From NCBI GenBank assembly GCA_019454045.1, contig SKCR01017725.1:18642-82641 (forward strand): DNA of 64,000 bases. The letters are read 5' to 3'. Below, in pieces: positions 20,966-62,649 of the stretch (positions are counted from its first letter, which is position 1; each line of letters starts with the position of its first letter). The DNA is from Zanthoxylum bungeanum. Taxonomy: Eukaryota; Streptophyta; Magnoliopsida; Sapindales; Rutaceae. The notes under the pieces were generated by a model. That model did no database searches. It worked only from the letters and a program-made list of their open reading frames with translations, and was not told where the DNA came from. A program made the position numbers and the translations under genes.

Positions 20966-22230
20966 TGACACGCTCAAAAAATGGTCTTTTACTCCCAAGT
21001 ATAAGAGTGTCGAAGTCATAAATTAACCCGGTAAGTCCGGGGTCGATCCACAGAGAAAAGATTTAGCAAAATAGAATGATGAGTAATGCGAAAAAGAAAT
21101 GTTTGATTTGTTGAAGTTTGGTGACTTTTAGATTTAAATGCAATAATTAAATGAACTGCTGGAGTTAGGGGATCCACTTTTAACCTTTGAACTTAGAAAT
21201 CTCGCTTAACTATAATATATAAATTGCCATTTAGCCAATTGATTTATCTCTGGACTTAAGTATGCCAATATAAAGAACCAGCCATAAAGGCGGTAGTCAT
21301 TTATGTCAATAATCAATCCTGCCAAGGTACTAAGTATGCCAAAAATATAAAAACCAGTCATAAAGGCGGTAATACCATTTGTTTATAACAAGTCCAACCA
21401 AGGTACTTAATTATGCCAAAATCGTAACCATCCATAAAGGCGGTAGAAAGATAAAACCAGCCATAAATGTGGTAGAAAGATTGTCAATAATTAATCTAGA
21501 TCTAAATCAAGTTTTAATCATTAGATTTCAATTTATTTATTATAATAGAAGCTAGTTTAATCTATATTGTCATTATAAAAGCTTCACCCTTACCCCAGCA
21601 GAAAGAAATCAGCTACTAATTTTGTAATTAAACATACTCGTAATTTTATTACTGAAAGAAAAAGACATTACAAAAAGCTTTAAGTAAATAAACAAACAAG
21701 ACACTCTCTCTTTAAGATCAACAGAGGAATCAGGAAAGAAAGTATGAAAATTTCTTATGCTGGACGCTCATATTTATAGGCAAATTTGGTCGGCGCGTCA
21801 CGATGCCAATTGCTTCATGCGTCGCGACATGAGTGCCACATTGGGGACACGTGTAATAGAATGGCAAGTTCGGTGTTGTCTTTGTTTTATTAGGCTCGTC
21901 ACGACGTGAGTAGATTCCACGCGTCGTGACGTGAGTGCCACGATAGGGACATGTGTTAAGAGAATGGCACGTCGCGACGCGATGTAATTTTCGTGTCGCG
22001 ACGCAGAATCTGATTTATGTTTTTGCCTTTTTCAAGTCTGGTTTGTGTCCTGTCGAGCTTCCAAACAGTATTTTACCTATCAAATAACATAAAATAACAC
22101 ATTAAAAATACTCAAAGCATAACTTAAAATATTATTTCACAAATATGTCAATTTAAGGGGATTAGTGAAACTATAAGTGTAAAATGATTGACATATCGTA
22201 TAATAAATATGCACTTTTTAGTATTCATCA
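20966..22230 (-). repeat. Athila-1 3' LTR (1265 bp)
   Basis: It is homologous along its length to 58432-59766. It contains a TATA box (21771-21778, minus) and four copies of a module with AACCAGCCATAAAGGCGGTA (21270-21480). GC-rich CACGTCGCGACG-type palindromes lie at 21790-22010. The PPT-like GTTGGGGGGTG (minus strand, 22231-22241) borders it. No gene. Confidence 0.88.
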
Positions 22231-23430: not shown

Positions 23431-24084
23431 TTATAGATTAAGGTCTAAATTTACTTTGTACTTTTTGCCACGATCGTTACCAGACCAGTTCAACTTGGAA
23501 AGAATAGGGTAGATTATTGGTTCATAAGCTAATCGTTGGTCAATTAAATCATCAGCTTTTCTTGTAATTAGGAAGATATCTCTTACCGGTTTTGAAATAA
23601 ACCCATTTCTTTTGCCATCTTCAAGAAATACGAAAGGAAAATTAAAAAATCCATTAACATTAAACAGCCCAATGGGTTTTTGGTGAAAATTCAAGTTTGC
23701 CCATGACGCAACTGTGAATATTTCTTCCAACGTTCATAGCCCACCTGGTAAAGTAATGAAAGCATCAGCATAATTGATCATTTCAGTGAGTCTTTCAGAC
23801 ATACCTGGGATAATACACTCTTCTCCATTTCATTTTCCGATGATATTGTCCTCTGTTAAGGTTTTTGGAATGATCCCCAAAACTTGACTGCCACATTCTT
23901 GTACATATTTTGAAATACACCCCATCAATCCAAGATTGTCACCGCCATATACTAAGTGCATGTTTCTGTTTGCCATAACTCTTCCCAATTCTCTTGCACT
24001 CTCAACAAATTCTGGTTTAGTTCCAGAGCTAGTTCCACAAAACACACATTTATTAGTGAATCATCATTTCAAAGTTATCTCCAT
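23431..24084 (-). pseudogene. LOG-like: LOG-like cytokinin riboside 5'-monophosphate phosphoribohydrolase, Athila-1 copy
   Basis: LOG enzymes cut ribose phosphate from cytokinin nucleotides in the cytosol, giving the free active hormone. The frame from ATG 24084 to TAA 23431 is 217 codons, the usual LOG length, with no intron. Motifs in order: CVFCGTSSGTKPEFVE, HLVYGGDNLGLMG (nucleotide-binding loop, GGG changed to GGD), VLGIIPKTL, PGMSERL, PGGL-TLEE (the signature PGGxGTxxE with Gly replaced by TGA), SWANLNFHQKPIGL, and tail VNLDLNL. TGA stops lie at codons 7 and 8, after IIGK, and inside the signature, so the copy is dead. It is 280 bases downstream of the Cys-rich ORF on the same strand. 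The same gene sits at the same place in Athila-2. Confidence 0.9.
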
Positions 24085-24359: not shown

Positions 24360-24904
24360 CTATGGGTCGGGGATAGGCTTCCCATCCAAATTTCTTATAA
24401 ATTGGCAAACATGGTCTTTTAAAGTCAGATTCCCGAGACTGTAATGGTTTTTTTCTTTTTGAAATTGTGTGTGTAATCTGCGAATTTCACGATGAACATA
24501 TCCACTATGATGCATCTCAAGAGTCAATGATATATCATCGAAAGGCTCCTTACTCAGTCCATATCTAATGAATTGAATTTTATCTTCGTGATTATCAGAC
24601 ACCATTCCTAAAGAACGACAACGAGTGTTGCACGTAGCGTGCACACTTATAAAAACACCTAATTTTTTAGCTCTTTATTTTTTAGAATTGTGCTTTTCCC
24701 TGAACCAAACATGTAAGAAATGAAGGAGTTAAGTGACTCACCTGCCAAGCGAACTCTTGCTTCAATTACCTAACGAATATCACAAGGAATACCATGAATC
24801 ATATGAAGTCTCATTCTTTATGTGCGGGCTTTGTAAATTTTTGTCAGAGCATTTTGGGGAAGAGAAGGAAAATGTTTGTGGAGGTTTGCGAGAGTTTCTT
24901 CCAT
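24360..24904 (-). pseudogene. Small Cys-rich basic protein resembling carlavirus NABP, Athila-1 copy
   Basis: The frame begins at ATG 24904 (MEETLANLHKHFPSLPQ), homologous to the Athila-2 copy, and passes VIEARVRLAGES, then a decayed basic/Cys region. The C-terminal part is open from 24644 (CNTRCRSLGMVSDN) to TAG 24360 and ends VCQFIRNLDGKPIPDP. The longer C-terminal region (about 60 residues, HSGY..REIRRLHTQFQ) is missing from Athila-2. The first Cys pair is mutated and at least two stops and two frameshifts are present. It follows integrase by about 290 bases. The virus-like identity rests on the better-preserved Athila-2 copy. Confidence 0.6.
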
Positions 24905-25190: not shown

Positions 25191-26260
25191 TCAATTGGTC
25201 CCATATGGATAAACATGTTTCACAATAAATGGGCCACTCCATTTGGATTTTAACTTTCCAGGAACTAAATAAAGACGAGAATTATAAAGCAAAACCTTTT
25301 GACCAACTTCAAATATTTTTCGTGAAATTCGACTATCATGAAAGGCTTTAGTTTTAGCTTTAAGAATTTTCATATTCTCATATGAATCATTCCTTAACTC
25401 TTCAAGTTCATTTAGTTGCAATTTATGTTCATGACCATCATTTTCAAGGTTTGAATTAAATGCTTTAATAGCCCAAAATGCTTTATGCTCAAGTTCTACA
25501 GGCAAATGACAAGGTTTTCCATAAACTAGATGATATGGGACATTCCCAAAGATGTTTTGAAAGCTGTTTGATATGCCCAGAGTGCATCAGTTAGTCGAAG
25601 AGACCAATCTTTGTGATTTGGGTTAATTTTTTCTAAAATTTGTTTAATTTCCCTATTCGCTAATTCAACTTGTCCGTTTGTCTGGGAGTAATAAGAGGTG
25701 GAAACTTTATGTGTGACTCCATACTTTTTCATTAAGGACTCAAAGAGTCTATTACAAAAGTGTTTACCTCCATCACTTATGATGGCTCGAGGAATTCTAA
25801 ATTGACTCAACATGTTTTCTTTTAAAAATTTTATCACAGTTGTGTGATCATTATTCCGACAAGAATTACCTCGACCCATTTTAAGACATAATCGACTACA
25901 ACTAAAATATATAAAAATCCAAATGATGGTGGAAATGGGCCCATGAAATCTATCCCCCAATAATCAAAGATTTTGATGACAATGATAGGATTTAAAGGCA
26001 TCATGTTTCTTTTTGAAATAGATCCCAACTTTTGACAGTTTTCGCAAGTCTTGCAGAATGTGTGTGTATCTTTAAAAATGATGGGCCAATAAAATCCACA
26101 CTGCAAGATTTTTCAGTGGTTTTCTTAGATGAAAAATGACCTTCACATGCTTCTGAATGACAGAACTGAATAACACCACTTATCTCACTGTCCGGTATGC
26201 ATCTTCTGAAAATATGATCAGAGTAGTATTTAAACAGATATGGATCATCCAATCAGAATC
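25191..26260 (-). pseudogene. Athila-1 integrase
   Basis: In minus order: the HHCC zinc domain (CHSEACEGHFSSKKTTEK and CKTCENCQKLG, with a frame change inside), the core with DYWGIDFMGPFPPS (first Asp), ISDGGKHFCNRLF (second Asp) and TNGQVELANREIKQIL (Glu). Then come the Athila-typical [17 protein letters not shown] and the C-terminal [11 protein letters not shown]...[11 protein letters not shown] domain ending near 25191. All catalytic residues are visible, but frameshifts near 25520, 25900 and 26110 break the frame. Confidence 0.92.
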
Positions 26261-27670
26261 TTTTGACTTCGGTCAAAAATTTCCTCCTATTTTGTTGGCT
26301 CCAGCCTGATGGTATCTTTCATGTTGCAAGAAAATTGAAAATATTAGCATACCAAGGCATTATGTTTACAGAAAATAAGAATTCATCGGGAAAAGAATCA
26401 TTGATGGGAGTGGTATCAATTAGTGACTCATTTGTGAGTCTCGATAAATGATATGCAACCACGTTTTTTGCCCCTTTCTTATCTTTAATTGTGAGATTGA
26501 ATTCTTAAAGAAACAAAATCCATCGTATTAATCTTGGTTTGGCATCCTGTTTAGACATCAAATATCTAACAGCAAGCATGATCAGAGTAAACAACATTGA
26601 AGAACCGATTAAATATGATCGGAATTTATCCAATGCAAATTTACAGCGAGTAGTTCTTTTTCTGTAGTAGTATAATTTATTTGTGCACTGTTTACAGTTC
26701 TACTTGCGTAATATATTACATGTGGCTTACCTTCATTTCTCTGTCCTAGCACTGCACCAACTGCATAATCACTAGCATCACACATGAGCTCAAAAGGCAA
26801 GGACCAATCAGAGGATTGCATAATAGGAGTAGAAGTCAAAAGACTGATAATCGTTCCAGATGATTTTTGACATTCTTCTATCCATTCAAATGTTGCATCT
26901 TTCAATAGGAGGTTACATAAGGGTCTGGATACGGTACTAAAGTTTTTAATGAACCTCCTATAAAATCCTGCATGTCCTAAAAAAGAACGAATGTCCCTGA
27001 CTGTTTTTGGTGATGGTAATTTAGAAATTACCTCTATTTTTGCCTTGTCAACCTCAATACCTTTAGACGATACAACGTGTCCCAAAACAATTCCTGAATT
27101 AGTTATGAAATGTCATTTTTCCTAATTTAACACAAATCCCTTAGATTCACATCTCTTCAAAATAGTTTCCAGATTATTCAAGCAATTATCAAATGAATTC
27201 CCAAAAAAAGTTATATCATCCATAAAGACCTCTAAACAGTGTTCAACCATGTCGCATGTGCATTACAAAGTCCAAAAGACATTTTCCTAAATGCAAATGT
27301 TCCAAAAGGGCATGTGAATGTGTTCTTTTCCTGGTCTTCTAAAGCAATGGGAATTTGATAATAACCCGAGTAACAAGAAAACAATAGTATGGATGTCCAG
27401 CTACTCTCTCTAAAATTTGATCAAGAAATGCTAAAGGAAAATGATCTTTTCTAGTTGCGTCATTTAATGTTCTATAATCAATGCACATGCGCCAATTAGA
27501 TGAAATGCGAGTTGGGATTAATTATCCTTTATCATTTTTTACAACAGTAATTCCAGAATTTTTTGGTACAACCTGTGTAGGACTTACCCACTTACTATCA
27601 GAAATAGGATAGATAATGCATGCATCAACAAGTTTAAGGACCTTTGTTTTTACTACTTCTTTCATGTGAG
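26261..27670 (-). pseudogene. Athila-1 reverse transcriptase and RNase H
   Basis: RT begins near 27500 with NWRMCIDYRTLNDATRKDHF, then FAFRKMSFGLCNA, a small deletion, and the catalytic FMDDITFFGNSFD near 27200. It continues with LGHVVSSKGIEVDKAKIEVI and SFLGHAGFYRRFIKNFS. RNase H follows with LMCDASDYAVGAVLGQR and YYASRTVNSAQINYTTTEKE (26609-26800) and the linker to integrase. Frames change near 27085, 27250 and 27360. Confidence 0.92.
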
Positions 27671-27683
27671 GGTTTAATCTTCT

Positions 27684-28747
27684 TTAGGGTTGACGATATG
27701 TCCTAGCATTATCTTCTAAATGTATTTGGTGTGTGCAGATTAATGGATTAATACCTTTTATGTCTTTTAAAGTCCATCCAATTGCCAATTTATGTTCTTT
27801 CAACACTTTTAAAAGTTTAGCTTGTTGATCGCTTGTGAGAGAAAAAGAAATTACCACAAGGTAAGCTTGATTATCTTCTAGAAATGCATATTTCAGTCCT
27901 TCTGGTAAAGCTTTTAACTCCAAATTGGGTGCTTCTTCGGGTTTTCTTTCTTCCAGTGTTCTCAGTTCTTCCAAATTTTGAATCTTTCCACCGTCTTCTA
28001 ATACCTGTGTAGAATCAAGTAGAAAATAATTAGTAATATCCGAATCTATTTGCGCACTTGACTCAACAAAATTTTCTGTAAAAAATTCCATGGGATCAGA
28101 TAAACTCCCATGAATATGCTCATCCAAAATAGGTTCATTTGATTCCACGCTTTCGTTTTCATTATCTTCATCATATGGCTGTTTGCACATGTTAAAAATA
28201 TTTAGCTTTAATGTCATGTTGCCAAAAGAAAGATTTATGATTCCATTCCTGCAATTAATTAAAGTGTTAGCTGTTGCTAAAAATGGGCGACCAAGTATTA
28301 CAGTGATTGGTTTATAACTATCTGCCACATGTTGTGTTTCTAAAATAATAAAATCCATAGGATATACGAATTTATCGATTTGCAATAACACATCATCCAT
28401 ATTTCCTTTTGGTACCTTAACTGATCTATCGGCAAGTAAAAGAGTAGTTGATGTTGGTTTCATCTCACCGATTTTAAGTTGTTGATAATCCGAAAATGGA
28501 AGTAAATTTACACTAGCTTCAAGATCAAGCAAAACATGTTCAATGTGATTTCCAATAGTACAAGAAATAGTTGGACAATCAGGGTCTTTGTATTTTAATG
28601 TATTATTGGTTGAGAGAATGGAATTTACCTGTTCAGCTAGAAAAGCTTTTTTTTCTTACCTGATGTTATCTTTTAATGGTGCACAGATCTTTCAGAAATT
28701 TGGCATAAGATGGTATCTGTTGGATGGCATCTAACAAAGGAATATTG
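27684..28747 (-). pseudogene. Athila-1 protease and gag-protease linker
   Basis: Minus-strand reading from the Copia-3 junction: NIPLLDAIQQIPSYAKFLKD (28742-28680), the Athila gag-protease linker, then the protease with MLDLEASVNLLPFSDYQQL (consensus DLGAS changed to DLEAS) and VILGRPFLATANTLI. An acidic stretch and the link to RT (YAFLEDNQAYLVVISFSLT, HKLAIGWTLKDIKGINPLI) end near 27684. The Gly-to-Glu change beside the catalytic Asp would probably inactivate it. Confidence 0.9.
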
Positions 28748-34345: not shown

Positions 34346-34552
34346 TGGGACTTGTGCAGTGTGTGACAATGACAATCCTATCAAAGTACGTGCAATGCAT
34401 TTTCACTTACCTGGCTCGCCAGCTGCCACCTAACTTGCCATGTTGATTCGAACTGAGTTGATCTGGTGGTGAGGTGCTTCGACCCCTGAGGTTCATCCCT
34501 GCAAGATGCTGCGATCTCTAGGAATCACTACCGAACTGAACTGATATGATGG

Positions 34553-38746: not shown

Positions 38747-40926
38747 TGTAGACAACAGAACTTGACGACGCTGGTTCTAGACTCGCGGCCTAGTTGGTAG
38801 TAAGAAATAACATGGAGTCGCAACCCGGTGTGAACCGGGACAAAGATTTATGGCCGCACTCACCCCTCGCAAGGGAAGACCTCAAACCGTTGGGTTCGGA
38901 ATGGTCCATTACTTATGCCACTTGTAATGATGTGATTTGTGGAATAAACTAACCGAATCTACTCAACAAATATGCTCAAAGGATCTACGTCTAGTATGCA
39001 TTCATCAAAATAACTCCTAATCTAAGTTTGCATGCTTGAAAATAAGTCTTTAAACGGCAACACAATAGAAATCACACAATGAGCACATTGAACCATTAAA
39101 GCAAAATAAACAAATAACTATTTAAAAATAATCATAACCATAAACTAAAAAAATATCATGCATAAAAATAACATTATCATGCTTTGACAATAAATAATAA
39201 ACTAGGCTAAATCATGCTTTAAATAATAAATAAATAACCTACAAACTACAACATGCTCAAATACAAATTTGGATGAGACGAGATATGTGTATCTTAAGGG
39301 GTACGTGGCGTTGTATCCCGAGTGCAGACCGCAATACCGTCCATTCGGAATCGGCTACGGAATTTACGCCCGAGTTTCCATCCGATATACCACAAAAGGG
39401 AAACAACATCCCGCTCATCCAACAATCACATCATGCCTCAAACGACTCTCATGCGATAATATATTAAAAGAAATAAGAATAAACGAAAGATAATAAATAA
39501 AAAGGTGCCCTTAGGTCTAACCTTTTTTGTCGTTCTTCGAAAGCGTTACACGGCCGTCGGAAGGATTGATACTCCGCAACTTTTCTGGTTCACTAATCCA
39601 ACGATTTTCCTCGCGGTTTCACTGCTCGGGTTGTTGTTTTCACTCCATTTTTGTATTGTTTTAAGGATATTTTCTGGTTACTGTTTCAGGTCTATTAGGT
39701 TACTGTTTTGGGGATTGTTTTCAGAGATTTGGGGACTGTTTTTGGGGTGTATTTCAGGTGCAGTTTTAAGGGGATAACTGTGTGGACAATATGGGCAGTA
39801 GAGGGCTGTGTGCGTAAGTTATAGGGGCTGTGAAAAGGGCTGCAGTGGGCTTAAATTTCAGGGCAGTGAAGAGGCAGTTCGGCGTGAGTTATAGGGCTGA
39901 TTTGGAGGCAGTTTTGTGTGATCAATAAGGGCTAGTTGGAGGCAGTTTTGGCGTGAGTGATGAAGGCAGAATAAAGGGGCTGGATGAGGAGCGAACATGC
40001 GTGAATGATGGGGCTGGTTGGAGGCAGTTTTGTGTGCGTGAAATTGGCTAGCTTGATGAGTGTTATTGCGTGAAGTTTGGCTGAGATTTAGGGTGAAACG
40101 TGGAGTGATGGGTGTTGATTGTGGGTGCAGTGGCGAGAGGGTGTGTGAGGGGTACGCTGGTGCGTGGTGTGTGGCAACGTACATGAGGGTTGATGATGCG
40201 CTAAAAGGGCCTTTGTGTTGTCGGTCAGTTGCTTTGGTGCGTTTGATTCGGTCAGTGGCGTGAGTTTGTGGCTGGTAACGTGAGGGTGCAGGTGCAGTTA
40301 ATGAGGCAGTGTGATATGTGTGGAGGCAGGCTATTAGTTTTATTTTTCGTGAGAGAGGAGAGTGCAAGAGCAGGTTAAGGTTATTATTTTGTGTGTGAAT
40401 CTACCAGCCAGGGTTTGAATGTTTGGAGAGGGGTTATTTTTATAGGCAAGGGGATGAGTTTTACCTTGTTTGGGTAGGAAATGGAGATTGTGTAATAATT
40501 GGGGATATCTTTTAATTTAGTATGTGATAAGGAAATCTTTTAATTTGGGGAAGTGATTTATGTATTTTAGGAAATGGATTTAATTTAATTAGATTTAATT
40601 TAATTAATTTCAAGTTTAATTTAATTTGTGAACGTGATTTTAATTTAATATAAGTTTAATTTAATTGGTTTTAATTTAATTAATGAGATGTGTTTTAAAT
40701 GTTTTAATTTTTTAATTTGTGAGATGTGTTTTAATGAGTTTGGTGTGTTTAAAACAGAGGTCCAACAAGCGAACCCGAAGCGAAACAAGCGAGTTAACTC
40801 TGACAAAATGCTAATTTCCAACTTTACCCTTCCAACGTCCGTTTCCCGCGGCTTTCACAACTAAAGAGGTAGTGTCTCCATACGAGACTCATCATCGGCC
40901 TGATATGCAAAAATACAGTGCCTATA
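38747..40926 (-). repeat. Ogre-2 5' LTR (2180 bp)
   Basis: Nearly identical to 32146-34329 with small indels. The outer end reads GTGCCTATA where the other LTR has ATGCCTACA, so the terminal CA is mutated to TA. The target duplication GGGAG follows immediately. Confidence 0.9.
40434..40444 (-). promoter_or_regulatory. TATA box of Ogre-2 5' LTR
   Basis: The minus strand reads TATAAAAATAA in the context TTGCCTATAAAAATAACC, like the Ogre-1 promoter. It would drive the element RNA leftward. Confidence 0.6.
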
Positions 40927-40931
40927 GGGAG

Positions 40932-44486: not shown

Positions 44487-47090
44487 TGTTGGGGGTGGTG
44501 CTCAGAGCGCCAATCCGGACCGTATTTATGTCTGATTCATGAATACGAACATCCCCTTTTCCATAATATTACTTTCTTAGTGGTTACACCTCTTATTTTT
44601 ATATACTTATTCGATCTGATTACGATTAGATTGAAACTAAATGTGGTTTAGTGATATGTATATATTAGACAAAGGCCCAATAATATATAATGCAGTACAT
44701 AGTTACAAAGGTAGTTTGTAATTGACATTGGGAAGTGTCACTGCTAAATGTATATTATCAAATATAGTTCCTGGTCAAGATTTACTAACACGGGTCGGTT
44801 AGCCAAATCCGTTGAGACCAGTACATGTCGTATATCGAGACTTGGTCCGATGGTTTATCCCAATGAACCATGAGTCTAGGGAGACTCGTATAGACGTGTA
44901 GGTGTTTATATTAGATAAACACTGAACGACTCACCGAAGATTCTTAATGGATGGTAAACCAATGTCAATAAGAATCTTCTCGGGTTGAGTAGCATAGTGG
45001 TCCTTCGACTTGAGATACCACTGTAGATGTATGAGACATCCTCCATACTTAGATGGCAGTCACGTCACCGATCTATTTAGATCAGACCTCCGCCTGTTCA
45101 TTGGGTGTGGACCGATCCTCAGGATATCCTGTGTGTATCAAGATATGATCCGTCAGTTATGTGTACAGAGCATAGGTAGTCTATATGTGATTAGTAGTCT
45201 GTTAAATTTGTGGCCACAGTAAACTTCAGAAGTAAGTTCCGAATGTTATTTAGAGATTTCTAATAGATACGTCGACGAGATAATACCTATAGAGATTTGA
45301 CGTTTACATCTATATCTCTGGGATTATCCGGATACCTGTGACGGATGGATTATACGTATGTAATGACCTCGACCTGTATGATTCAGCCAGTTTATCCGTG
45401 GTCGTCATAATTTACGGGTGGGTAAATTATGGACACGAAATTGGATTTTGTGACGGATATACCTGAATCTAGAGAGTCTCACAAATGAAATATACTCGTA
45501 GAGCACTAGAGCGACTTTTATAAATAATGATGATTATTTATAAATCGTTTAAACGTTAAACGAAAAATACATGCGAATGGGCCGAACCGTCATTTCCTAA
45601 TTAATGTGTATTTGTATTTAATATATGATATTATTAAATGCACATTAATAAATTGTCAGATAAAGGTATTTGACATATATCATTAATATATGTATTTGAG
45701 ATATTTAAAGTAAATATAATACATATAATTGAGATATTTGTATTTAATTAATTATTTAATTATTTAATTGGTAAATGATTAATATAATTAAAATATAAAT
45801 ATCTCACCAAATGATAAAGTTATGAAATGATTATAAGTGTAATTATTGACTTTATACTTAAAGGAAAATGTTGTCAAATTGAATTTGACTTCCTTGGATA
45901 TTTGTTTTAATTGTTGAAATTGAAAATATTCATTTTCTTTTTTATTTGTAATATTCGGCCATCACCCTAATTAAATATAATGGTTATATTTTTAAGTTGC
46001 TTTTGTTGACTTATGAATTTTCATTAAAGGTGTAATGATAAATTTGCAAGTTGATTAAAGTAACTTTAAATGAAACAAAATAATATCTAGATATTTTATA
46101 TATCACAATTTCGGCCAAGCCAATTTTGGGCAAGTATATATTGTTTTTTTTTTCATCTTTTAGGGTTAGAGAAGTTCATTAGATACCAAATAAACATAAA
46201 AGAAGTTGAGAGAAAAGCTTGAAGGCTAAAGGAAAAAGCTTGGAAATCTTTGAGTTTTGTAAGTTTTTCTTTAAAATTTTCAACATGAAAAATATTTCTA
46301 ACATGCTTAGCATCATTTGTGTTGCTTTGGTGTTGTCTCTATCTTATAGTTTGTGTTTATTTGGGTTGTGAACTTTGATGAAAGATTGATGCATGTAAGT
46401 AAGCTTGAAATAGTTTCAAAGCTTTACTTTTGATTTTTGGAAAATCTAGTTGCCATTCTAGAGTTGGTAAGCCACTCCTTGGTGACCTAGAATTGTTCTA
46501 GAGTTGTTTCAAAGTGGTGAGGCTAGATTGGTGAAGTATTGAATAGATTAAAGTGTTGGCTTTTGTAAATTTGGTGAAATTGGATAATTTGATGAAATTG
46601 AAAAATTAGGGTTCATAACCCACTCCAAATTTTGGGCTTTTCTTATATGTGATGTATTATGATATTAATATAATGCATGTAAAATTTTAGGTTGATTGGA
46701 TTTGATCTTGGCATGTTTTGTACTAAAGGAACCAAATTGTAATTAATTGAAAATTTTGAGTGGCTCACGGCATTAGACTAAAAATTTGGGATTTGTTTGA
46801 AATCTGATTTTGATGCATTAGATGTGTTGAAAAATATTTTAGAAATGATTTAGAGTCATCCAAAATTATATTTGATAATTTTTGGGCTAAAATAATCAAT
46901 TTACAAAGTTTTGGGGCAATTTGGTAATTACCAAGAAGTTTGATCTCTTGTGTAATTTTTCAGAATTTGATAATTGGATAATTAAATAAATAAGTTTATT
47001 TAATTGATCCGAGAAAAAATTTGAAATCGGAAAATTTTGATTTTCCACTATTCCGCTGCGTTACCGATATTCCCCCTTAAAACCCCATCA
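44487..47090 (+). repeat. Copia-3 3' LTR (2604 bp)
   Basis: It pairs with 28748-31494 and ends CCCCATCA, followed by the target duplication TATTG. It has a single copy of the segment that is duplicated in the 5' LTR. Confidence 0.9.
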
Positions 47091-47516: not shown

Positions 47517-47521
47517 GCATT

Positions 47522-49632
47522 TGACCGGTGCTTACACACACACACATATAACGCAAGCGCACGTATCGTTCAAGTAGTATAAAAAATATCGATCCCACGA
47601 GGACTTAATACCTAATCTATTAATTTTATGAGGTCAAATGATTATAGTATCTAACATGTTGATTGATTGATTTGAAATGGTGATGATTTTAAATTTAAAA
47701 ACAAGTAAATAAAAATTGCACGAAAGTAGGTTTAAGAAAATTCAATATTAGGAAACTATCTAGGGTTTTGAATCTTTCTAATATCTTTTAAAAGATGAAG
47801 TGGTTATTTCATGTTTGTGTAATATATCGGTTTACTATCTGGAACACTAAATTATGCGAAAGCCTCTGTCGATGGTCAGACGCAAATACCCAGTATAACC
47901 CAATTGAACCATATGTCTATGTCAACCAAATTACTTGGATTCATTAAGTTTAAGTTCCAATTATGGCTACCCCGCCCGACAGGTATATGTCTATCCTGTA
48001 AGGAAATTTATTAAAGGGTTATCTATCCTCAAGGAAGATCGTGGGCTATTAAGTCTAAGGCTGAAACCTAAAATTCCTTTGTCAAGTTTATTTTAGATTT
48101 ACCATATCAATCTTATTAGTGGCCAATTAACAAGACGTATTAAGCTTAAGACTTAATAAGTAAACCTTTAAATTACCCAAACTATAAAATAACCCCTTAT
48201 AAACCGGTGATATTGGATTTCATCACAACCCCAGAAAACTGGCTTAGTTACGACACATATTTACGGGTAGTAAAAACTTAAATAAAATAAAAGACATAAA
48301 GTAAATGCTGAAAAGTAAATTGCTGAAAAGTAAATGACGGAAAGTAAATGCTGAAATTAAATACTGAAAGTTAAATGCTGAAAAGTAAATGCTGAAAGTA
48401 AATTACTGAAAAGTAAATGCTGAAAGTAATTACTGAAAAGTAAATGCTGAAAAGTAAATGCTGAAAGTAAATTACTGAAAAGTAAATAAACTAAAAGTAC
48501 AATAAAAGAAAATACTAAGGTAAAAGATCCACTTTTATTACTTCTATCTTAGATATCTCCCTTAATATAATATATTAACTTTGCATGATAATTACCAATC
48601 AGCCATATAGGCGGTATCCAGATTAAGTCAAATTAATAATTAATTACCAACCGACCAATCAGGCGGTATCCAGTTTAGTCAGGTTAAAACCAATTTAAAT
48701 AATTACCAACCAACCAATATGGCGGTATCCTCGTTAAGTCAGGTTTTAACTAGTTTATATATTATAATTAAGGGAGATTAATCTAAATATTAATAATAAA
48801 AGTTTTACCTCTTACCCCGGCAAAGGGGAGTTACCTCCTCATTACTGAAAAGTAAAAACTGAAAATTAAAGAAAGAAAAGTATTGTGCGTAAAAGTAAAT
48901 TGCGGAAAGTAAAAAATGAAAAGTAAAGGAAAGAAAGTGCAAAAGCGGAAATTAATTACTGAAAGGTGTAAATAAACAGACAAGATACAATCTTCTTAGT
49001 ATTCTTAAGGAATTCCTGAGAAGAAAGTATACAAATGAAATGACTTGGTATTTATAGGCAAAATTTTGCCTCCATCAAATCATCCACCAAATCAATTATT
49101 AATTGCTCCACTAATTGCTTATCATGTTTGGTGGTGATTTGATAATTTTTATTATTTATTTATTAATTTATTTTTTGCTTTGAAAATGATTGAAAATGAC
49201 TTTAATAATTACACACAACACACTTATGGATGGTTCATCAATTTCGGGCATGAAATCTTCAGAATTCGAAATTATTTCGTCTTTCCAAGTTGTAGATATT
49301 TGAGTCTTCTTTAATCTGGACCTTGAATCAGCTCAATTCGATATCAGAGTAAAAGGTTATGCCCAAAATACGACAGATACGCAAAACTGGAATTTCCAAA
49401 ACTGCACTTCGTGGAAACGCCCTTTCAAGTTTCCAATCTCCAAAATTAATATTCAAGTCTATTTTTTACCTTTATTTGACCCACATTTCGTCCTAAATGA
49501 TTTCATTGTGTCCCAATATTATTTTATCTGCAAAATAAACTAAAACACATCAAAACGTTCATCAAACCCGAGAAACTAAACAAAATATTAAGTAAAAGGG
49601 GCGGTAAATATTGATATATTTTCCGCTCATCA
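47522..49632 (-). repeat. Athila-2 3' LTR (2111 bp)
   Basis: Very similar to 54541-56640. It contains (CA)n at 47533, an array of about 14-bp units TGCTGAAAAGTAAA (48295-48495) and three about 70-bp units with ATTACCAACCRACCAATCAG and GGCGGTATCC (48590-48760). The TATA box TATAAATA is on the minus strand at 49049-49056. A PPT-like AATCGGGGTG (minus, 49633-49642) borders it. Confidence 0.92.
48295..48495. repeat. 14-bp minisatellite TGCTGAAAAGTAAA in Athila-2 LTR
   Basis: At least twelve imperfect units in a row, with relatives again at 48845-48960. The other LTR has the same array at 55310-55500 with a different number and order of units. Copy-number change after insertion is therefore visible. 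Confidence 0.85.
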
Positions 49633-50609: not shown

Positions 50610-51262
50610 TTAAAGGTTAAGATCCAGATTAATCCGACGCCTCTTACCATGATCGTCCTCGATCCAATTTATCTTTGAAAGGATAGGGTCAATTTGTGGT
50701 TCATAGGCTAAGATTTGGTCAATTAGATCCGGAGCAGTTCTGGCAGTAAAGAGGAGTTCTTTCATAGGTTTTGACACGAACCCATTTCTTCGAGCATCAT
50801 CAAGAAACACACAAAGAAAATCATAAAATCCTTCAACGTTGTACAGTCTAAGCGGTTTCTGGTGTATGTTCAGGTTCGCCCAAGATAACAATGTAAAAAT
50901 TTCCTCCAATGTACCCAAGCCACCTGGAAAAGCAATAAAAGCATCATCACAGTTAATCATTTCTACCAATCGTTCAGACATACCTGGCACGATCAATTCC
51001 TCTCCGTTTGATGGTCCAATAAGATTTGCCTCCGCCAAAGGTTTTTGGATGATTCCCAAAACGTGACTGCCTCCATCCTGTACAGTTTTTGAAACGATCC
51101 TCATAAGTCCAAGATTGCCTCCGCCATTTACTAAGTGCATATTCCTTGCAGCTAAGACTCGACCCAATTCCTGTGCTGCCTCTACGTATTGTGGCTTACA
51201 CCAACACTAGTACCGCAAAACACACAGATGTTGTCAACTCGTCTTCTTGAAGTGGCTTCCAT
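50610..51262 (-). pseudogene. LOG-like: LOG-like cytokinin riboside 5'-monophosphate phosphoribohydrolase, Athila-2 copy
   Basis: The enzyme family frees active cytokinin from its ribotide. The start ATG at 51262 (MEATSRRRVDN, then ICVFCGTS) aligns with Athila-1. One base is missing near 51198, after GTSVG, and from 51167 the frame is open to TAA 50610 (185 residues). Seen: ARNMHLVNGGGNLGLM (family form YGGG; Tyr is Asn here), VLGIIQKPL, VPGMSERLVEMI, the intact signature PGGLGTLEE, LLSWANLNIHQKPL and tail INLDLNL. Total length without the deletion is 217 codons, as in Athila-1, with no introns although plant LOG genes have several. It lies 250 bases downstream of the Cys-rich ORF and before the 3' UTR repeats. 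A shortened product from Met 51167 is possible but would lack the first strand of the fold. Confidence 0.92.
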
Positions 51263-51512: not shown

Positions 51513-51961
51513 CTATGCGTCAGGGACAAGCTTCCCATCCAATTTTCTTATAAATTGGCAAACAGCGTCTCAAGAGTCGAAGATATATTATCTACAGACT
51601 CCTTACTCAAGCCATCCTTAATGAATTTAATTTTGTCTTCACGATTATCAGACACCATTACTAAAGAACGACAACGAGTATTGCAATTCCAGCGTGCACA
51701 TTTGTAACAAACACCCATTTGCTTAGCTCTACGTTTCTTTGCATAGGTGTTTCTTCCAAAACCAGGCAGATGTGAAATAAAAGATTCAGAAGACTCACCT
51801 GCCAATCGGACCCGTGCTTCGATAATCCAATGAATGTCAGTAGGAATACCTTTGATCATCAGTAGTCTCATCCGTTCCAAGCGAGCTTTGTAGACTTTCA
51901 TCATAGATTTTTGAGGGAGAGAATGAAATTATTTGTGAAGATTTACGAGATTTTCTTCCAT
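51513..51961 (-). pseudogene. Cys-rich basic protein resembling carlavirus nucleic-acid-binding protein, Athila-2 copy
   Basis: ATG 51961 aligns with the Athila-1 start. A TAA at codon 11 follows, and the frame is then open from 51904 to 51548. Visible in order: KARLERMRLLMIKGIP, VRLAGES, GFGRNTYAKKRRAKQMG (basic, nuclear-signal-like), CYKCARWNCNTRC (four Cys that could bind zinc), DKIKFIKDGLSK. An internal deletion shifts the frame near 51565. The ancestral tail VCQFIRKLDGKLVPDA continues to TAG 51513 in another frame. Carlavirus NABPs, known RNA-silencing suppressors, show the same arrangement: GxGRSTYAxRRRA, then GRCxRC and more Cys. The resemblance is from memory of the family pattern, not an alignment. 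An alternative is a host or retroelement zinc-binding protein. Confidence 0.6.
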
Positions 51962-51986: not shown

Positions 51987-52540
51987 CTAAACATACAAAA
52001 TTAAATTACACCAAATCACAATATATACACAAATTGCATGGGTTGCCTCCCTGCGAGCGCTAAGTTTAAAGTCGTCAGCTAGACGTGACTTCTCAAACGT
52101 TAGGCTGGATCTGAAAGTGTGACACTTTCTTTTTTGTCGCTCAAATGATTCTCCCCAGTTGTGCTTGACACGCTTGTTTTTAACCTTGAATGTTTTGTTG
52201 GAGTCGGGATCATATATCTCAACGGCTCTGTCTGGTAAAACCTTGGTGATCACAAATGGACCTGACCACAGTGATTTTGGCTTCCATGGGAAGAATTTCA
52301 CCATTGATTTGTTTAACAGTACCTTCTGCCCTGGTTCCAGTTGTATGCGCACTAACTTCTCATCCTGTCTCTTCTTGGCCTTTTCTTTGTACAATTTGGT
52401 ATCCTCAAAAGGCTGATTGTGAAATTCCTCCAATTCGTTGAGCTGGTGGAACTTTTTCTCTTATGTTGCTTGTAGTGCAAGAATTGACTTTTTCAGTGCA
52501 AAAGACGCTTTATCTTAAGGCTCCACAGGCAATTGACATA
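51987..52540 (-). pseudogene. Athila-2 integrase C-terminal region
   Basis: Minus reading from 52540: CQLPVEP-DKASFALKKS (family [15 protein letters not shown]), HQLNELEEFHNQPFEDTKLY, GQKVLLNKSMVKFFPWKPKS and LWSGPFVITKVLPDRAVEI. This is the DNA-binding end of Athila integrase. It is joined directly to protease sequence, so the integrase core is lost. The frame runs on to 51987 in sequence with no family match. Confidence 0.88.
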
Positions 52541-53067
52541 TTTTAAGTTTGTCAGTAGAACTTTGCATTGCATTGGAGTTCTGAATGGTACTGTGTATCA
52601 CATCAAGTCTGAAACATTCCTCATTCTTTCCATCATCTGGGAAGTTCATGGCCTTGAAAACATTGAATGTTACTTCTTGGTCTTGTACCCTCATGGTTAA
52701 TTCTCCTTTTTGTACATCAATAATGGTTCGACCTGTAGCCAAGAATGGTCTCTCGAGAATGATCGGCACGTCTTCATCTTCCTACATATCAAGGATAATA
52801 AAATCTGCTGGGAAAATGAATTTGTCAACCTTGACCAACACATCCTCAACTACGCCTCTTGGAAATACGAACGTTCTATCAACAAGTTGTAGAGAGACTG
52901 AAGTGGGCATTATTTCTCCAATCTGCAGTTTCCTGAAAATAGAAAAAGGTATCAAGTTAACACTAGCATCTAAATCACATAAAGCCTTACCAAAGTCATG
53001 TTCTCATATGGTGCAAGGAACATCGAAACTGCTAGGATCTTTCAATTTTGGAGGAAGTTTCCTCTGA
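52541..53067 (-). pseudogene. Athila-2 protease
   Basis: Minus-strand motifs: LCDLDASVNLIPFSIF-type start (52990-52930, family DLGAS), FIFPADFIILDM, IILERPFLATGRTIIDVQKG and LTMRVQDQEVTFNVF. A stop lies after the FIILDM segment near 52780. The next domain should be RT but the sequence goes into integrase at about 52540. Confidence 0.85.
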
Positions 53068-54433
53068 ATGATAGCGCTGCATTCTTCTGATAATGCTACT
53101 ATCTCGTAATCTCCCAATCTCCGCTTTCGTGAAAGAATATCTTTCATGAATTTGGCATAGCTGTGCATTTGTTCCAACGCTTCTGCAAATGAAATGTTGA
53201 TATGCAGCTTTTTGAACACCTCCAAGAATCGAGCAAATTGATTGTCCAGTTTATTTTTCTGAAGACGCTGAGGAAATGGTGGAGGTGGAGTGATCTGTTC
53301 TTTTTCCTTTGCTTCTTTTTCCTCCATCTGTTGCTTTGTTTCTTTTGGAACTTCCTCAGCAGTTGTTTTGGCTCCAACATCTTTGTTGATTTCAGTACCG
53401 CTTTTTAACATGATGGCATGACATTATTCCTTTCCTATGTTCCTTGGATTTGGCTCTGTGTTGCTGGGAAGAGTACCTGGTGGTCTGTAACTCTGAGCAT
53501 TGGCCAGTTGTCCCATTTGATTCTCCAGTGCTTTAATAGAAGCTGATTGACTTTGAATTAATGCTGCTTGGGATTGAAACATAGTATCATATCTTGATGC
53601 TTGAGAGTCGTGTTTTGCTTCTATCTTTTTCAAGTGGGTCAACACTTCTGTTATTCCTTATTCATTTTCCTGCTTCTGACCTTTGTTCTGTTGTTGGAAT
53701 CCGGGTGGTGGGTTGTATATTTGCCCTGAATTGTTGCTCCATGTGAAATTGGGATGGTTGCTCCACCTTGGGTTGTAGGTGTTCGAATATGGATTGTTCC
53801 ACTGTCTGTTGAAATTGTTGACATAATTCACCGTTTCTTTATGTTGGTTGAAAGATTCTGACTCAGGTGCTCCTCCAAATGGTGAACTTGTGGATCCACC
53901 ATTAACCTTCATGTTACGAGTTTCCAGATTTTTGCAAATCTGATCCAGCTTGGAATTCAGTGTTGTGTTAGCTCAAACTTCATAAATTCCTACAATTCTT
54001 TGGATCATGCTCCTTTCAAGGAATATGGAAAAACTCGTAGTCTCATAGCTTCTTCAGCTACTCGGTTGTAGTTGAAAGTACCGCAAACTTCCAGGAAGTT
54101 GCTGATGTGGGCATTAGGATCTTCAGTTGCATTTCCCCCAAACTGTACTGACTGCTGAATCATCTGGATGCATATTTTGATGTCACCCGTATTTGCTGGT
54201 AAGGGAGGAAGTACAATACAACAAATGAGTCCGTCAACCACAAGAATGGTTCTATCTCGAATGGGAATTGGTGGTGCAACGTTCAAAGGTTCAGGTTCCA
54301 TGTTAATGATTGCTTCTTGGCCTTCTCGCTTTTCCCTTCTCAACTGTCTGATGGTTCTTTCAATTTCTGGGTCAAGCGGTTGGAGTTCAAAGCTTCTGGT
54401 TCGTCTCATGTACTTTATGAGAACCTGAAACAC
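53004..54433 (-). pseudogene. gag: Athila-2 gag
   Basis: In minus order: N-terminal FELQPLDPEIERTIRQLRRE (54433-54330), the capsid start FGGNATEDPNAHISNFLEVC (54150-54100) and AMRLRVFPYSLKGA (ends 54005). Next come an Asn/Pro/Gln-rich segment (YNPRWSNHPNFTWSN, 53800-53660) and the coiled-coil MGQLANAQSYRPPGTLPSN (53500-53430), then IPFPQRL-like linker and LEVFKKLHINISFAEALEQM (53200). Gag is shortened: most of the capsid between 54005 and 53912 is missing, and frames change near 53650 and 53420. Confidence 0.87.
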
Positions 54434-54516
54434 AAGAAAACAAAAACAATAAGTAAAAAGAAATTAGATACAAGTAAAATATCTAACCCCAAAACTAATA
54501 GTGAAAGATAAATAAG

Positions 54517-54540: not shown

Positions 54541-56640
54541 TGACCGGTGCTTACACACACACATATAACGCAAGCGCACGTATCGTTCAAGTAGTATAAA
54601 AAGTATCGATCCCTCGAGGACTTAATACCAAATGATTACTAGTATCTAACATGTTGATTGATTGATTTGAAATGGTGATGATTTTAAATTTAAAAACAAG
54701 TAAATAAAATTGCACGAAAGTAGGTTTAAGAAAATTCAATATTAGGAAACTATCTAGGGTTATGAATCTTTCTAATATCTTTTAAAAGATGAAGTGGTTA
54801 TTTCATGTTTGTGCAATATATCGGTTTACTAACCTGGAACACTAAATTATGCGAAAGCCTCTGTAGATGGTCAGACGCAAATACACAGTATAACCCAATT
54901 GAACCATATGTCTATGTCAACCAAATTACCTGGATTCATTAAGTTTAAGTTCCAATTATGGCTACCCCCCCCGCCCGACAGGTATATGTCTATCCTGTAA
55001 GGAAATCTATTAAAGGGTTATCTATCCTCAAGGAAGATCGTAGGCTATTAAGTCTAAGGCTGAAACCTAAAATTCCTTTGTCAAGTTTATTTTAGATTTA
55101 CCAATCAATCTTATTAGTGGCCAATTAACAAGACGCATTAAGCTTAAGACTTAATTAGTAAACCTTAAAATTACCTAAACTATAAAATAACCCCTTATAA
55201 ACCGGTGATATTGGATTTCATCACAACCCCAGATAACGGGCTTAGTTACGACACATATTTACGGGTAGTAAAAACTTAAATAAAATAAAAGACATAAAGT
55301 AAAATGCTGAAAAGTAAATTGCTGAAAAGTAAATGACCGAAAGTAAATGCTGAAATTAAATACTGAAAGTTAAATGCTGAAAAGTAAATGCTGAAAGTAA
55401 ATTATTGAAAAGTAAATGCTGAAAGTAAATTGCTGAAAAGTAAATTGCTGAAAAGTAAATGCTGAAAGTAAATTGCTGAAAAATAAATAAAGTAAAAGTA
55501 CAATAAAAGAAAATGCTGAGGTAAAACGATTCACTTTTATTACTTCTATTTTAGATATCTCTCTTAATATAATATATTAACTTTGCATGATAATTACCAA
55601 TCAGCCATATAGGCGGTGTCCAGATTAAGTCAAATTAATAATTAATTACCAACCGACCAATCAGGCAGTATCCAGTTTAGTCAGGTTAAAACCAATTTAA
55701 ATAATTACCAACCGATCAATATGGCGGTATCCTCGTTAAGTCAGGTTTTAACTAGTTTATATATTATATTTAAGGGAGATTAATCTAAATATTAGTAATA
55801 AAAGTTTTACCTTTTACCCCAGCAAAGGGGAGTTACCTCCTCATTACTGAAAAGTAAAAACTGAAAATTAAAGAAAGAAAAGTATTGTGCGTAAAAGTAA
55901 ATTGCGGAAAGTAAAAATTGAAAATTAAAGGAAAGAAAGTGCAAAAGCGGAAATTAATTATTGAAAGCTGTAAATAAACAAACAAGATACAATCTTCTTA
56001 GTATTCTTAAAGAATTCCTTAGAAGAAAGTATGAATTTATAAATGAAATGGCTTGGTATTTATAGGCAAAATTTTGCCTCCATCAAATCATCCACCAAAT
56101 CCATTATTAATTGCTCCACTAATTGCTTATCATGTTTGGTGGTGATTTGATAATTTTTATTATTTATTTATTATTTATTTTTTTGCTTTGAAAATGATTG
56201 AAAATGACTTTAATAATTACACACAACACACTTCTGGATGGTTCATCAATTTCGGGAATGAAATCTTCAGAATTCGAAATTATTTTGTCTTTCAAAGTTG
56301 TAGATCTTTGAGTCTTATTTAATCTGGAACTTGAATCAGCTCAATTCGATATCAGAGTAAAACGTTATGCCGAAAATACTACAGATGCGCAAAATTGGAA
56401 TTTCCAAAACTGCACTTCGTTGAAACGCCCTTTCAAGTTTCCAATCTCCAAAATTAATATGTCAAGTCTAATTTTGCCCTTATTTGACCCACATTTCATC
56501 CTAAATGATTTCATTGTGTCCCAATATTATTTTATCTGCAAAATAAACTAAAACACATCAAAACGTTCATCAAACCCGAGAAACTAAATAAAATATTAAG
56601 TAAAAGGGGCGGTAAATATTGATATATTTTCCGCTCATCA
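54541..56640 (-). repeat. Athila-2 5' LTR (2100 bp)
   Basis: Partner of 47522-49632, with the same boundaries, minisatellite and GGCGGTATCC units (55610-55740). Outer target duplication GCATT at 56641. It differs mainly by short indels (for example at 54610-54650), so the insertion is fairly young. Confidence 0.92.
56057..56064 (-). promoter_or_regulatory. TATA box of Athila-2 5' LTR
   Basis: TATAAATA on the minus strand in the context TTGCCTATAAATACCAAG. The same TTGCCTATAAATA is in both LTRs of Athila-1, so the core promoter is conserved between the two families. Confidence 0.65.
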
Positions 56641-56645
56641 GCATT

Positions 56646-58431: not shown

Positions 58432-59766
58432 TGACACGCTCAAAAAGTGGTATTTTACTCCCAAGTATAAGAGTGTCGAAGTAATAAAATAACTCGGTAA
58501 GTCCGGGGTCGATCCATAGAGAAGAGATTTAGCCAAATAGAATGATGAGCAGTGCAAAAAAGAAAAGTTTGATTTGTTGAAGTAGTAGGTGACTTTTAGA
58601 TTTAAAATGAAATAATAAAATGAACTGCTGGAGTTAGGGGATCCAATTTTAACCTTTGAACTTAGAAATCTTGCTTAACTATAATATATAAAATTTCCAT
58701 TTACCCCATTGATTTATCTCAGGAATTAAGTATGGAAATATAAAGAACCAGCCATAAAGGCGGTAGTCGTTTATGTCAATAATTAGTCCTGCCAAGGTAC
58801 TAAGTATGCCAAAACATAAAAAACCAGCCATAAAGGCGGTAATACGGTTTGTTTATAACAAGTCCTACCAAGGTACTTATTATGGCCAAAATCGTATAAA
58901 ACCATCCATACAGGTGGTAGCACGATAAAACCAGCCAAAAGGCGGTAGAAAGATAAAACCAACAATAAAGGCGGTAGAAAGATAAAACCAGCCATAAAAG
59001 GTGGTAGAAAGATTGTCAATAATTAATCTAGATCTAAATCAAGTTTTAATCATTATATTTCAATTTATTTATTATAATAGAAGCGAGTTTAATCTACGTT
59101 TTCATTATAAAAGCTCATCACCCTTACCCTAGCAGAAAATAAATTAACTACTCATTTTGTAATTAAACATACTCGTAATTTTATTACTGAAAGAAAAAGA
59201 TATTACAAAAAGCTTTAAGTAAATAAACAGACAAAACACTCTGTCTCCAAGATCTATAGAGGAATCAGGAAAGAAAGTACGAAAATTTCTTATGCTGGAC
59301 GCTCCTATTTATAGGCAAATTTGGTCGGCGTGTCGCGACGCCAATTGCTCCACGCGTTGCAAAGCGAGTGACACGTTGGGGACACGTGTGAGAGAATGGC
59401 GAGTTCGGTAGTGTCTCTGTTTTATTAGGCACATCGCGACGTGCCATAGATTCCACACGTCGTGACGTGAGTGCCACGATAGGGACACATGTTGTGAGAA
59501 TGGCGCGTCGCGACGTGATGTAATTTCTGTGCCGCGATGCGGAAGCTGATTTCTATTTTTGCCCTTTTTCAAGTCTGGTTTTGTCTTGTCGAGCTTCCAA
59601 GCAGTATTTTACCTATCGAATAACATAAAATAACAGAGTAAAAACGCCCAAAGCATAACTTAAAATATTATTTCACAAATGTGTCAATTTAAGGGGATTA
59701 GTGAAACTATAAGTGTAAAATGATTGACTTATCGTATAATATATATGCACTTTTTAGTATTCATTA
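58432..59766 (-). repeat. Athila-1 5' LTR (1335 bp)
   Basis: Partner of 20966-22230. It has six AACCAGCCATAAAGGCGGTA-like units (58740-59010) against four in the other LTR, which explains most of the length difference. GC-rich CGTCGCGACG palindromes lie at 59330-59540. Confidence 0.88.
59306..59313 (-). promoter_or_regulatory. TATA box of Athila-1 5' LTR
   Basis: TATAAATA on the minus strand, context TTTGCCTATAAATAGGAGC, about 870 bases before the primer site. Confidence 0.6.
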
Positions 59767-59914
59767 CCAAACATGTTAATGACTTGATTGTCATAAATAT
59801 CCGTGATTAGGTGATTCTTTTATTTTAAGTAATAATATTAATAATGTTATAGCATTATTGGATGGTCTTTCTTGTCAATACAGAGATGAATGAGTTCTTA
59901 TTACTTATGCCCAA

Positions 59915-61120: not shown

Positions 61121-61139
61121 CATCTCATTAAACTTAGAT

Positions 61140-61356
61140 GCAATAGTGGTTGGGTGTTATACACCGGTAGTCCCACTCATATTTGCAACTCCATGATAGT
61201 TATAAGACTGCTGAATAAAATGGAGATCCAGCTTAGAGTTGGCAATGGCGAGACATTGGATGTCAATGCCATAGGAACAGTTGTTATAGATCTCCCTAAT
61301 GAATGTAAATTAATTTCACATGACTATTATTATGTATCTTTCTTATCAGACAGATA
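61140..61356 (+). pseudogene. Copia-2 protease
   Basis: WVLYTGSPTHICNSM at 61150 is the active site. The catalytic Asp of DTGS is Tyr here, so it is inactive. VRVGNGE-like LRVGNGETLDVNAIG and YYYVSFLSD follow, typical of the copia protease-integrase spacer. Confidence 0.82.
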
Positions 61357-61439
61357 ATATCATTACCAATATTGGATAAAGAGGGATATAAAATAAACAT
61401 TAAAGATAATGCTTTATTTTATATGATAAAAATAAATAT

Positions 61440-62260
61440 TTGTTATATGAATGTTCTTTATCTAACGATCATCATGTTTTGGAAACATATCAAGATGTCT
61501 TTAATATAAAGGAAAATACAAATAAAAGATCTGAATTAAATAATACCGAGTTATGGCATATGATATTGGGCGACATAACTGTTAGACGCCTATCGAAATT
61601 AGTTAAGGATGGTTTGACTAAAGATCTTACCTTAGATTCTTATCCGATTTGTGAGTCATGTATCCAAGGGAAAATGACAAAGGCCCCATTTCTTGGTGTT
61701 GGACACTGTGCTGAAGATTTATTAGAGCTTGTACACAGTGATGTGTGTGGTCAATTAAATCATGTCACTCATGATGGTTCAACATACTTCGTGACTTTCA
61801 CAGATGATAAGTCAAGATATGGATATGTCTATTTGATGAGACATAAATCAAAAATATTTGAAAAGTTCAAAATATTTTGAAATGAATTAGAAAAACAAAC
61901 TAGTAAATTCATCAAGTGCCTTCGATCAGATCGAGGTAGTGAATTTATGAGCGATAAATTCAAAAGTTATTTAAGGGAGAATGTGATTCTCGCTCAATAT
62001 AGCTCACCAAGAACTCCTTAACCCAATGGTGTCTGAACGGATAAATCATACTTTATAGGATATAGTACGATAAATTATGAGCTATACAGATCTTCCATAT
62101 TATATTTGGGGTTATGCTTTACTTAATGTTGCCCTTATACTTAACAGAGTTCCATCGAAAATTGTTTCTAAAATTCTATATCAGATATGGTACGATAGAA
62201 ATCTAAGTCTTAGATATTTATAGATTTGAGTTTGTCCTACATATGTTAGAGTCGCACAAC
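61440..62260 (+). pseudogene. Copia-2 integrase
   Basis: Zinc domain LWHMILGDITVRRL...CESCIQGKMTKAPF (second His changed to Asp), first catalytic site LVHSDVCG and YFVTFTDDKSRYGYVYLM, then after a stop at 61878 RSDRGSEFMSDKF with the second Asp. The Glu region (SPRTP-PNGV) is frameshifted. Ends near 62260. Confidence 0.88.
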
Positions 62261-62277
62261 GAGATAAACTAGCACCC

Positions 62278-62640: not shown

Positions 62641-62649
62641 ATTGATATC

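Follow-up and report, generated by a model that had tools for sequence, protein, structure and literature searches.

The whole 64,000-nucleotide stretch of Zanthoxylum bungeanum DNA analysed here (the window) holds an inner LTR retrotransposon and an older outer element, spanning 20966-59766, which carries a LONELY GUY (LOG)-like gene at the same place as the inner element. In both, the gene is accompanied by an open reading frame (ORF) resembling the Viral_NABP and Carla_C4 families, to which plant RNA viruses contribute nucleic-acid-binding or silencing-suppressing proteins (NABP-like ORF). The features of the two elements are:

20966..22230, minus strand: 3′ LTR of the outer element (86.7% identity to 58432-59767)
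23434..24084, minus strand: LOG-like gene of the outer element (217 codons, broken; tail KYKVNLDLNL; 85% identity to P0007)
24366..24904, minus strand: NABP-like ORF of the outer element (broken)
25191..28655, minus strand: pol region of the outer element (reverse transcriptase (RT) fragment, RNase H and integrase, by Pfam)
47517..47521: target-site duplication GCATT of the inner element, left copy
47522..49632, minus strand: 3′ LTR of the inner element (TG...CA ends; 94.8% identity to its partner)
50610..51262, minus strand: LOG-like gene of the inner element (653 bases, 217 codons, one frameshift near 51194-51206; tail KRRRINLDLNL)
51516..51961, minus strand: NABP-like ORF (Viral_NABP / Carla_C4) of the inner element (broken near its 3′ end)
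51987..52460, minus strand: tail-of-integrase-like frame of the inner element (by eye; without Pfam match)
52515..53003, minus strand: protease-like region of the inner element (by eye; one frame with a stop, pieces without Pfam match)
53004..54463, minus strand: gag-like region of the inner element (by eye; stops and a frame change, scanned pieces without a match above cut-off)
54541..56640, minus strand: 5′ LTR of the inner element (TG...CA ends; 94.8% identity to its partner)
56641..56645: target-site duplication GCATT of the inner element, right copy
58432..59766, minus strand: 5′ LTR of the outer element (pairs with 20966..22230)

Paired 2.1-kb LTRs, TG...CA ends and a GCATT duplication, all hallmarks of an LTR retrotransposon, bound the inner element, as the original prediction had described. 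The element is oriented on the minus strand with the LOG-like gene in sense, between the NABP-like ORF and the 3′ LTR, and the gene is, as predicted, part of the element. The family may belong to the Athila lineage; no ATHILA ORF-1 domain was found among the window pieces scanned with Pfam. The tail-of-integrase-like frame recurs in related copies, between pol and the NABP-like ORF, as do the protease-like and gag-like regions. Neither reverse transcriptase nor RNase H nor an integrase core was seen in the inner element, in frames judged by eye or in Pfam scans of its pieces, and it therefore looks like a non-autonomous copy.

The predicted LOG homologue of 217 codons with a single frame break was recovered by tblastn, Pfam and structure-database matches. 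Residues 1-23 of P0001, a full-length relative of 217 amino acids, matched 51262-51194 and residues 24-217 matched 51194-50613 (tblastn), a match in two frames that implies one frameshift; the open part of the gene matched Pfam Lysine_decarbox (E = 2.7e-32), NCBIfam TIGR00730 (E = 1.4e-35) and AtLOG3 (2a33; E = 4.9e-46), and the motifs PGGLGTLEE and NGGGNLGLM can be read directly. It is intronless, again as predicted, and may have been taken up from a spliced mRNA. This copy keeps both catalytic residues (Arg99 and Glu122; see below) and is probably inactive, because it departs from nine reference proteins at 5 of the 48 positions that are invariant among those references.

The outer element, the flanks of which show an imperfect match only, is interrupted by the inner element and by other insertions. 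Its pol region follows the Ty3/gypsy order of RT, RNase H and integrase, with a clear RNase H (RT_RNaseH_2, E = 1.1e-23), an Integrase_H2C2 match (E = 1.1e-05), an RT fragment below cut-off (RVT_1, E = 0.011) and rve just below cut-off (E = 2.6e-07). Accessory gene order is identical in the two elements (NABP-like ORF, then LOG). Their LOG regions share 67% DNA identity, and codon comparison between the two copies gave dN/dS values of 0.13 for the C part of LOG (dS 1.85), 0.21 for its N part (dS 1.16) and 0.26 for the NABP-like ORF (dS 0.72); at the integrase tail, synonymous sites were saturated and the comparison was not used. Two more nested LTR-like pairs lie within the outer element (28748-31494 with 44487-47090, and 32146-34330 with 38747-40927; 94-96% identity), the second of which encloses a diverged long-repeat array (34538-36801; 63-74% mutual identity). 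On the plus strand, open frames at 61121-63550 resemble a Copia-type polyprotein by eye.

To place these genes among their relatives, we searched the window's own genome (3.96 Gb, 51,709 contigs) and several sequence collections. The LOG query returned 66,614 loose candidates from the genome, the best 150 of which were scored and all match; for a host-type LOG query, the best 150 places had 47-50% identity, each in one unbroken stretch, and no host LOG gene was among them. Since all 150 were of element type, there was no host LOG from this genome for comparison. Together, the two queries identified at least 299 distinct places, one of them common to both (a few may be duplicate contigs), and an internal stop was present in 25 of the 300 best-scoring rows and absent from 275, such rows favouring intact copies. 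Protein relatives of LOG numbered 52 at E ≤ 1e-20, and a mixed LOG profile (7998 candidates scored, best 120 considered) gave, among the matches listed, host LOG1/LOG3 and element-type proteins including those of Populus x canadensis and Xanthoceras. The gene is thus spread well beyond the two window elements, in many places of this genome and with relatives in Populus and Xanthoceras. Viral contigs held no LOG relatives; every one of the 80 LOG loci retained from contigs of bacterial and archaeal genomes had a bacterial title, and 22 of these were taken as the outgroup.

A LOG tree was built from 83 rows (40 element-type, 21 host of LOG1/3/8 types and 22 bacterial), with element-type rows classed by similarity, LTR flanks having been seen in Z. 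bungeanum only. All 40 element-type rows fell into one clade (support 100/95) apart from the sampled host and bacterial LOGs; both window copies belong to it, the outer element being represented by the C part of its gene. The 21 host rows grouped together (support 100/99); the bootstrap had not settled and the root was placed on the bacteria. Branching first in the element-type clade were Xanthoceras proteins with 55-59% identity to AtLOG3, which fits a plant origin of the element LOG, the bacterial root being no test of origin. The linker of two Xanthoceras proteins, P0173 and P0174, matches the window minus strand near 47.1 kb (E = 5.5e-14, small local comparison), a stretch that nesting order suggests is the gag region of the outer LOG element, and an element setting for these two LOGs is therefore likely.

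The surroundings of the gene were then compared among loci chosen in three ways. In the 20 loci chosen by LOG, a matching LTR lay downstream of LOG in 18, the NABP-like ORF, whole or in part, lay upstream in 16, and RNase H together with integrase was found in 4. Among the four loci without an NABP match, two (L106, 4398-6780, and L107, 4398-6736, both minus strand) represent an LTR element type in which a gag-like ORF, without a Pfam match above cut-off, stands between LTR and LOG with no pol between ORF and LOG; the gag-like ORF of L107 is 392 amino acids long and that of L106 has a knuckle-like motif by eye. A third, L100, has a similar gag-like ORF about 3 kb upstream of LOG (by eye), and the fourth, L102, carries a 4.2-kb LOG-LTR unit in tandem (543-9022), an arrangement of LOG-LTR-LOG-LTR that perhaps arose by recombination between LTRs. 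Querying the genome with the gag-like ORF gave 105 scored places out of 103,361 loose candidates; in 19 loci chosen in this way, LOG lay about 0.5 kb downstream in 13, a LOG piece was present in one more and none was found in 5, and inspection of the region between the gag-like ORF and LOG showed an interval too short for pol. Derivatives that appear to lack pol also carry LOG. For the NABP query, the best 150 of 46,456 candidates were scored, and LOG adjoined the NABP-like ORF in 27 of the 28 loci chosen by it, the exception (L112) being cut short.

The NABP-like ORF of the inner element matched Viral_NABP (E = 5.7e-06, 26.9 bits, cut-off 23) and Carla_C4 (E = 1.5e-05, 25.3 bits, cut-off 20.9), as did 84 and 87, respectively, of 88 family members scanned. 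It thus matches the cysteine-rich NABP proteins of carlaviruses, vitiviruses and trichoviruses (Pfam PF05515 and PF01623), but is encoded by a retrotransposon, has about 182 amino acids and has a predicted structure too poor to establish its fold (pTM 0.35). Relatives in the protein collection numbered 192 at E ≤ 0.01, some of the best 120 being named from Xanthoceras, Acer, Rhamnella and Orobanche; none occurred in viral contigs. A profile search of the PDB returned one match (E = 0.83), and a viral 15-kDa protein and two silencing suppressors ranked first against the model without significance (best E = 0.37), so the viral link rests on Pfam. The protein probably counters RNA silencing or binds element RNA.

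Which reaction the element LOG might catalyse was assessed from its active site. An excerpt of PMC4979012 proposes Arg99 and Glu122 (CgLOG numbering) as catalytic and infers a prenyl-group site of Met96, His97, Lys100, Glu125 and Trp129, a set identical in AtLOG3, OsLOG and CpLOG. Plant type-I LOGs (AtLOG3, 2a33; AtLOG8, 1ydh) share with the element LOG their fold, PGGxGTxxE nucleotide loop, catalytic Arg/Glu and length, identity to AtLOG3 being about 44-59%; a structure model of P0001 (pLDDT 85) had AtLOG3 2a33 as its best match (TM 0.95 by target length, 0.76 by query length). Among the 82 element-type proteins from the database (counts exclude gaps and include near-copies, and so are not independent), catalytic Arg99 was kept in 70 of 79 and Glu122 in 76 of 78 (residue roles as in the PMC4979012 excerpt), and the pocket residues Met96 and Trp129 in 76 of 79 and 67 of 75. 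The other three pocket residues were kept in only 6 of 79 (His97), 4 of 79 (Lys100) and 4 of 77 (Glu125), the usual replacements being Ser/Phe, Leu/Met/Ile and His/Thr/Ile, respectively. Host-type proteins, in contrast, keep all catalytic and pocket residues (85 of 85), and the 22 bacterial rows keep His97 in 21, Lys100 in 21 and Glu125 in 22; the four first-branching Xanthoceras proteins keep all three. Besides these replacements, the element LOG differs from plant type-I LOGs in its basic LxLxL tail and lack of introns. Because Arg99 and Glu122 are mostly retained and His97, Lys100 and Glu125 replaced, its reaction chemistry has probably been kept and its side-chain pocket changed.

Nearly all element-type proteins thus lack the full proposed prenyl pocket of plant cytokinin-activating LOGs, three of its residues being replaced; the original proposal that the gene raises local cytokinin is not supported as stated, and classical cytokinin activation is possible but doubtful. 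A LOG that makes active cytokinin from nucleotide precursors, favouring division or meristem fate in the cells that carry the element, would accord with the modelled LOG fold, the mostly kept catalytic residues and the selection on the protein described below, and a more hydrophobic pocket might still take an isopentenyl group; however, the replacement of three of the five proposed prenyl-pocket residues in nearly all element-type LOGs, unlike the host and bacterial LOGs compared, makes this unlikely.

In many element-type LOGs, the C terminus consists of basic residues and then LxLxL (as in GKKRRINLDLNL; in the Populus type, LDLSLRL), which is the pattern of an EAR motif (PMC9956375, in part). 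A strict LxLxL was present in the last 10 residues of 45 of the 82 element-type proteins (fragments included) and in none of 85 host-type proteins (a set of mostly LOG1/LOG3 and AtLOG8, near-copies counted separately); among element-type proteins of at least 204 amino acids (Xanthoceras fusions left out) it was present in 35 of 45, the other ten having either a variant of the motif (LDIDLNR or LDFNL, for instance) or a changed end. The three tail leucines were invariant in all 13 full-frame copies of this genome. In the downy mildew parasite effector HaRxL21, as described in part of PMC7446885, a C-terminal EAR motif binds TOPLESS; that binding was tested there, whereas the element LOG tail is known from sequence. 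This precedent and the recurrent basic, LxLxL-type end would suit a non-enzymatic effector, in which the LOG fold is a scaffold for a nuclear, TOPLESS-binding tail that alters host transcription, as HaRxL21 does. Eight element-type proteins (P0010, P0011, P0012, P0023, P0034, P0037, P0048 and P0052) have Gln at the catalytic Arg, and these may be non-enzymatic. For the element LOG as a whole, such a role is improbable, given that most element-type proteins keep the catalytic pair and the nucleotide loop, and that in the 13 full-frame copies the core (codons 11-200, dN/dS 0.22) is more constrained than the tail (codons 201-217, dN/dS 0.51).

Selection on the gene was assessed by comparing changes private to one copy with changes shared by two or more, in 27 LOG copies from NABP-chosen loci, a sampling independent of LOG. 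Private changes (33 synonymous, 78 nonsynonymous and 3 stops) had a nonsynonymous/synonymous (N/S) ratio of 2.36, against a neutral expectation of 2.39 (transitions given an assumed weight of 4), and shared changes (81, 40 and 3) a ratio of 0.49 (Fisher P = 1.9e-8; 5.4e-8 without CpG changes). Comparable differences were found for LOG in the 20 LOG-chosen loci (private 62/86/7, shared 51/36/0; P = 0.007), for the NABP-like ORF in 13 LOG-chosen loci (25/91/5, 43/49/1; P = 1e-4) and, more weakly, for LOG in nine carriers chosen by the gag-like ORF (39/77/5, 25/22/0; P = 0.014), whose shared changes could be older than the loss of pol. The 13 full-frame LOG-chosen copies, biased by their choice, had a LOG dN/dS of 0.24, the measure that the original prediction had proposed; the shared N/S of 0.49 indicates purifying selection. 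Complicating this picture, frameshifts occur in 20 of the 27 NABP-chosen copies and only 4 are open. LOG copies decay neutrally after insertion, and the multiplying element lineages keep the protein; low shared and neutral private N/S place the selection during element multiplication, a combination that fits an element gene rather than a host gene or passive cargo. A separate candidate observation, that LOG is better kept than NABP within copies, was dropped, as each way of choosing loci (by LOG or by NABP) favours the gene used for the choice.

Passive cargo, that is, a captured host gene without function as in many one-off transductions, could account for the broken state of both window copies and most NABP-chosen copies, but is very improbable: it is contradicted by a shared-change N/S one-fifth that of private changes, by presence in at least 299 places with 275 of the 300 best-scoring rows (which favour intact copies) free of internal stops, and by a single clade with relatives in Populus and Xanthoceras. 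That LOG instead serves the plant, lying near repeats by chance or domesticated, is scarcely credible, even though the Xanthoceras and Populus annotations list element-type LOGs as proteins of the plant, since private changes fall at the neutral ratio, so that the plant does not keep single LOG copies, and 18 of the 20 LOG-chosen loci have a matching downstream LTR.

Building on the observed element anatomy, LOG clade, selection during multiplication and pocket and tail changes, we propose, with a probability of roughly 0.5, that the element LOG is an accessory phosphoribohydrolase with a changed substrate, targeted by its tail to the nucleus or TOPLESS, which makes the host permissive for this Ty3/gypsy element. 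A LOG gene, probably from a plant, would have been captured once by a Ty3/gypsy LTR-retrotransposon family and become part of a 3′ module of pol, NABP-like ORF, LOG and 3′ LTR. The captured protein would have kept the PGGxGTxxE loop and catalytic Arg/Glu while its N6 side-chain pocket was remodelled and a basic C-terminal extension, closing with LxLxL, was added. It would then act as a nucleoside-monophosphate phosphoribohydrolase with altered substrate preference, which its tail may bring to the nucleus or to TOPLESS-type co-repressors, and would render the host cell more permissive to the element. The NABP-like protein would probably counter RNA silencing or bind element RNA. Weighing against this proposal are the weaker constraint on the tail than on the core, the eight proteins with Gln in place of the catalytic Arg (some lineages may not be enzymes) and the broken state of most sampled copies. 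More tentatively, the parts may form a host-manipulation module, in which a LOG-derived enzyme of changed substrate (acting, for example, on another N6-modified nucleotide) with a nuclear, TOPLESS-binding tail would be selected for element spread, beside a virus-like silencing suppressor; relatives without pol would carry the enzyme too.

Two Athila-like elements with similarity to LOGL4 were reportedly described by Steinbauerova et al. 2011. The original prediction knew of no earlier LOG-carrying element, and in this it did not stand: PMC9289625, which cites Steinbauerova et al. 2011 for LOG in Gypsy elements, had already reported a LOG/YgdH domain in such LTR elements from Citrus and Populus. 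Those elements resemble the present ones in having a LOG-family domain in a plant Gypsy element, and PMC9289625, in its available part, gives the presence of the domain; the clade, selection, pocket, tail, NABP neighbour and pol-less carriers come from this analysis, and no account of them was found among the open-licence papers listed by the searches. Because the marker of the PMC9289625 screen, according to the same part, was reverse transcriptase, pol-less carriers would be expected to escape it. Orchid Gypsy elements with an m6A demethylase domain (same part of PMC9289625) likewise have a nucleotide-acting enzyme fixed in a Gypsy lineage, although that enzyme is unrelated. The review PMC7264820 discusses extra ORFs of elements and does not name LOG in the part examined. 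For LOG with an EAR motif, the one match with all terms among those listed was a review of homeodomain-leucine zipper and hormone networks, and no relevant account of NABP in retrotransposons was found in the open-licence literature, judged by titles and abstracts.

The function of the extra genes of plant LTR elements is mostly unknown. In the element LOG, a known enzyme fold is combined with clear evidence of element-level selection, and with substitutions that suggest a change of substrate open to experimental test. If the proposed role is true, a plant transposable element would act on the physiology of its host through an enzyme of a hormone pathway, beside a virus-like silencing suppressor.
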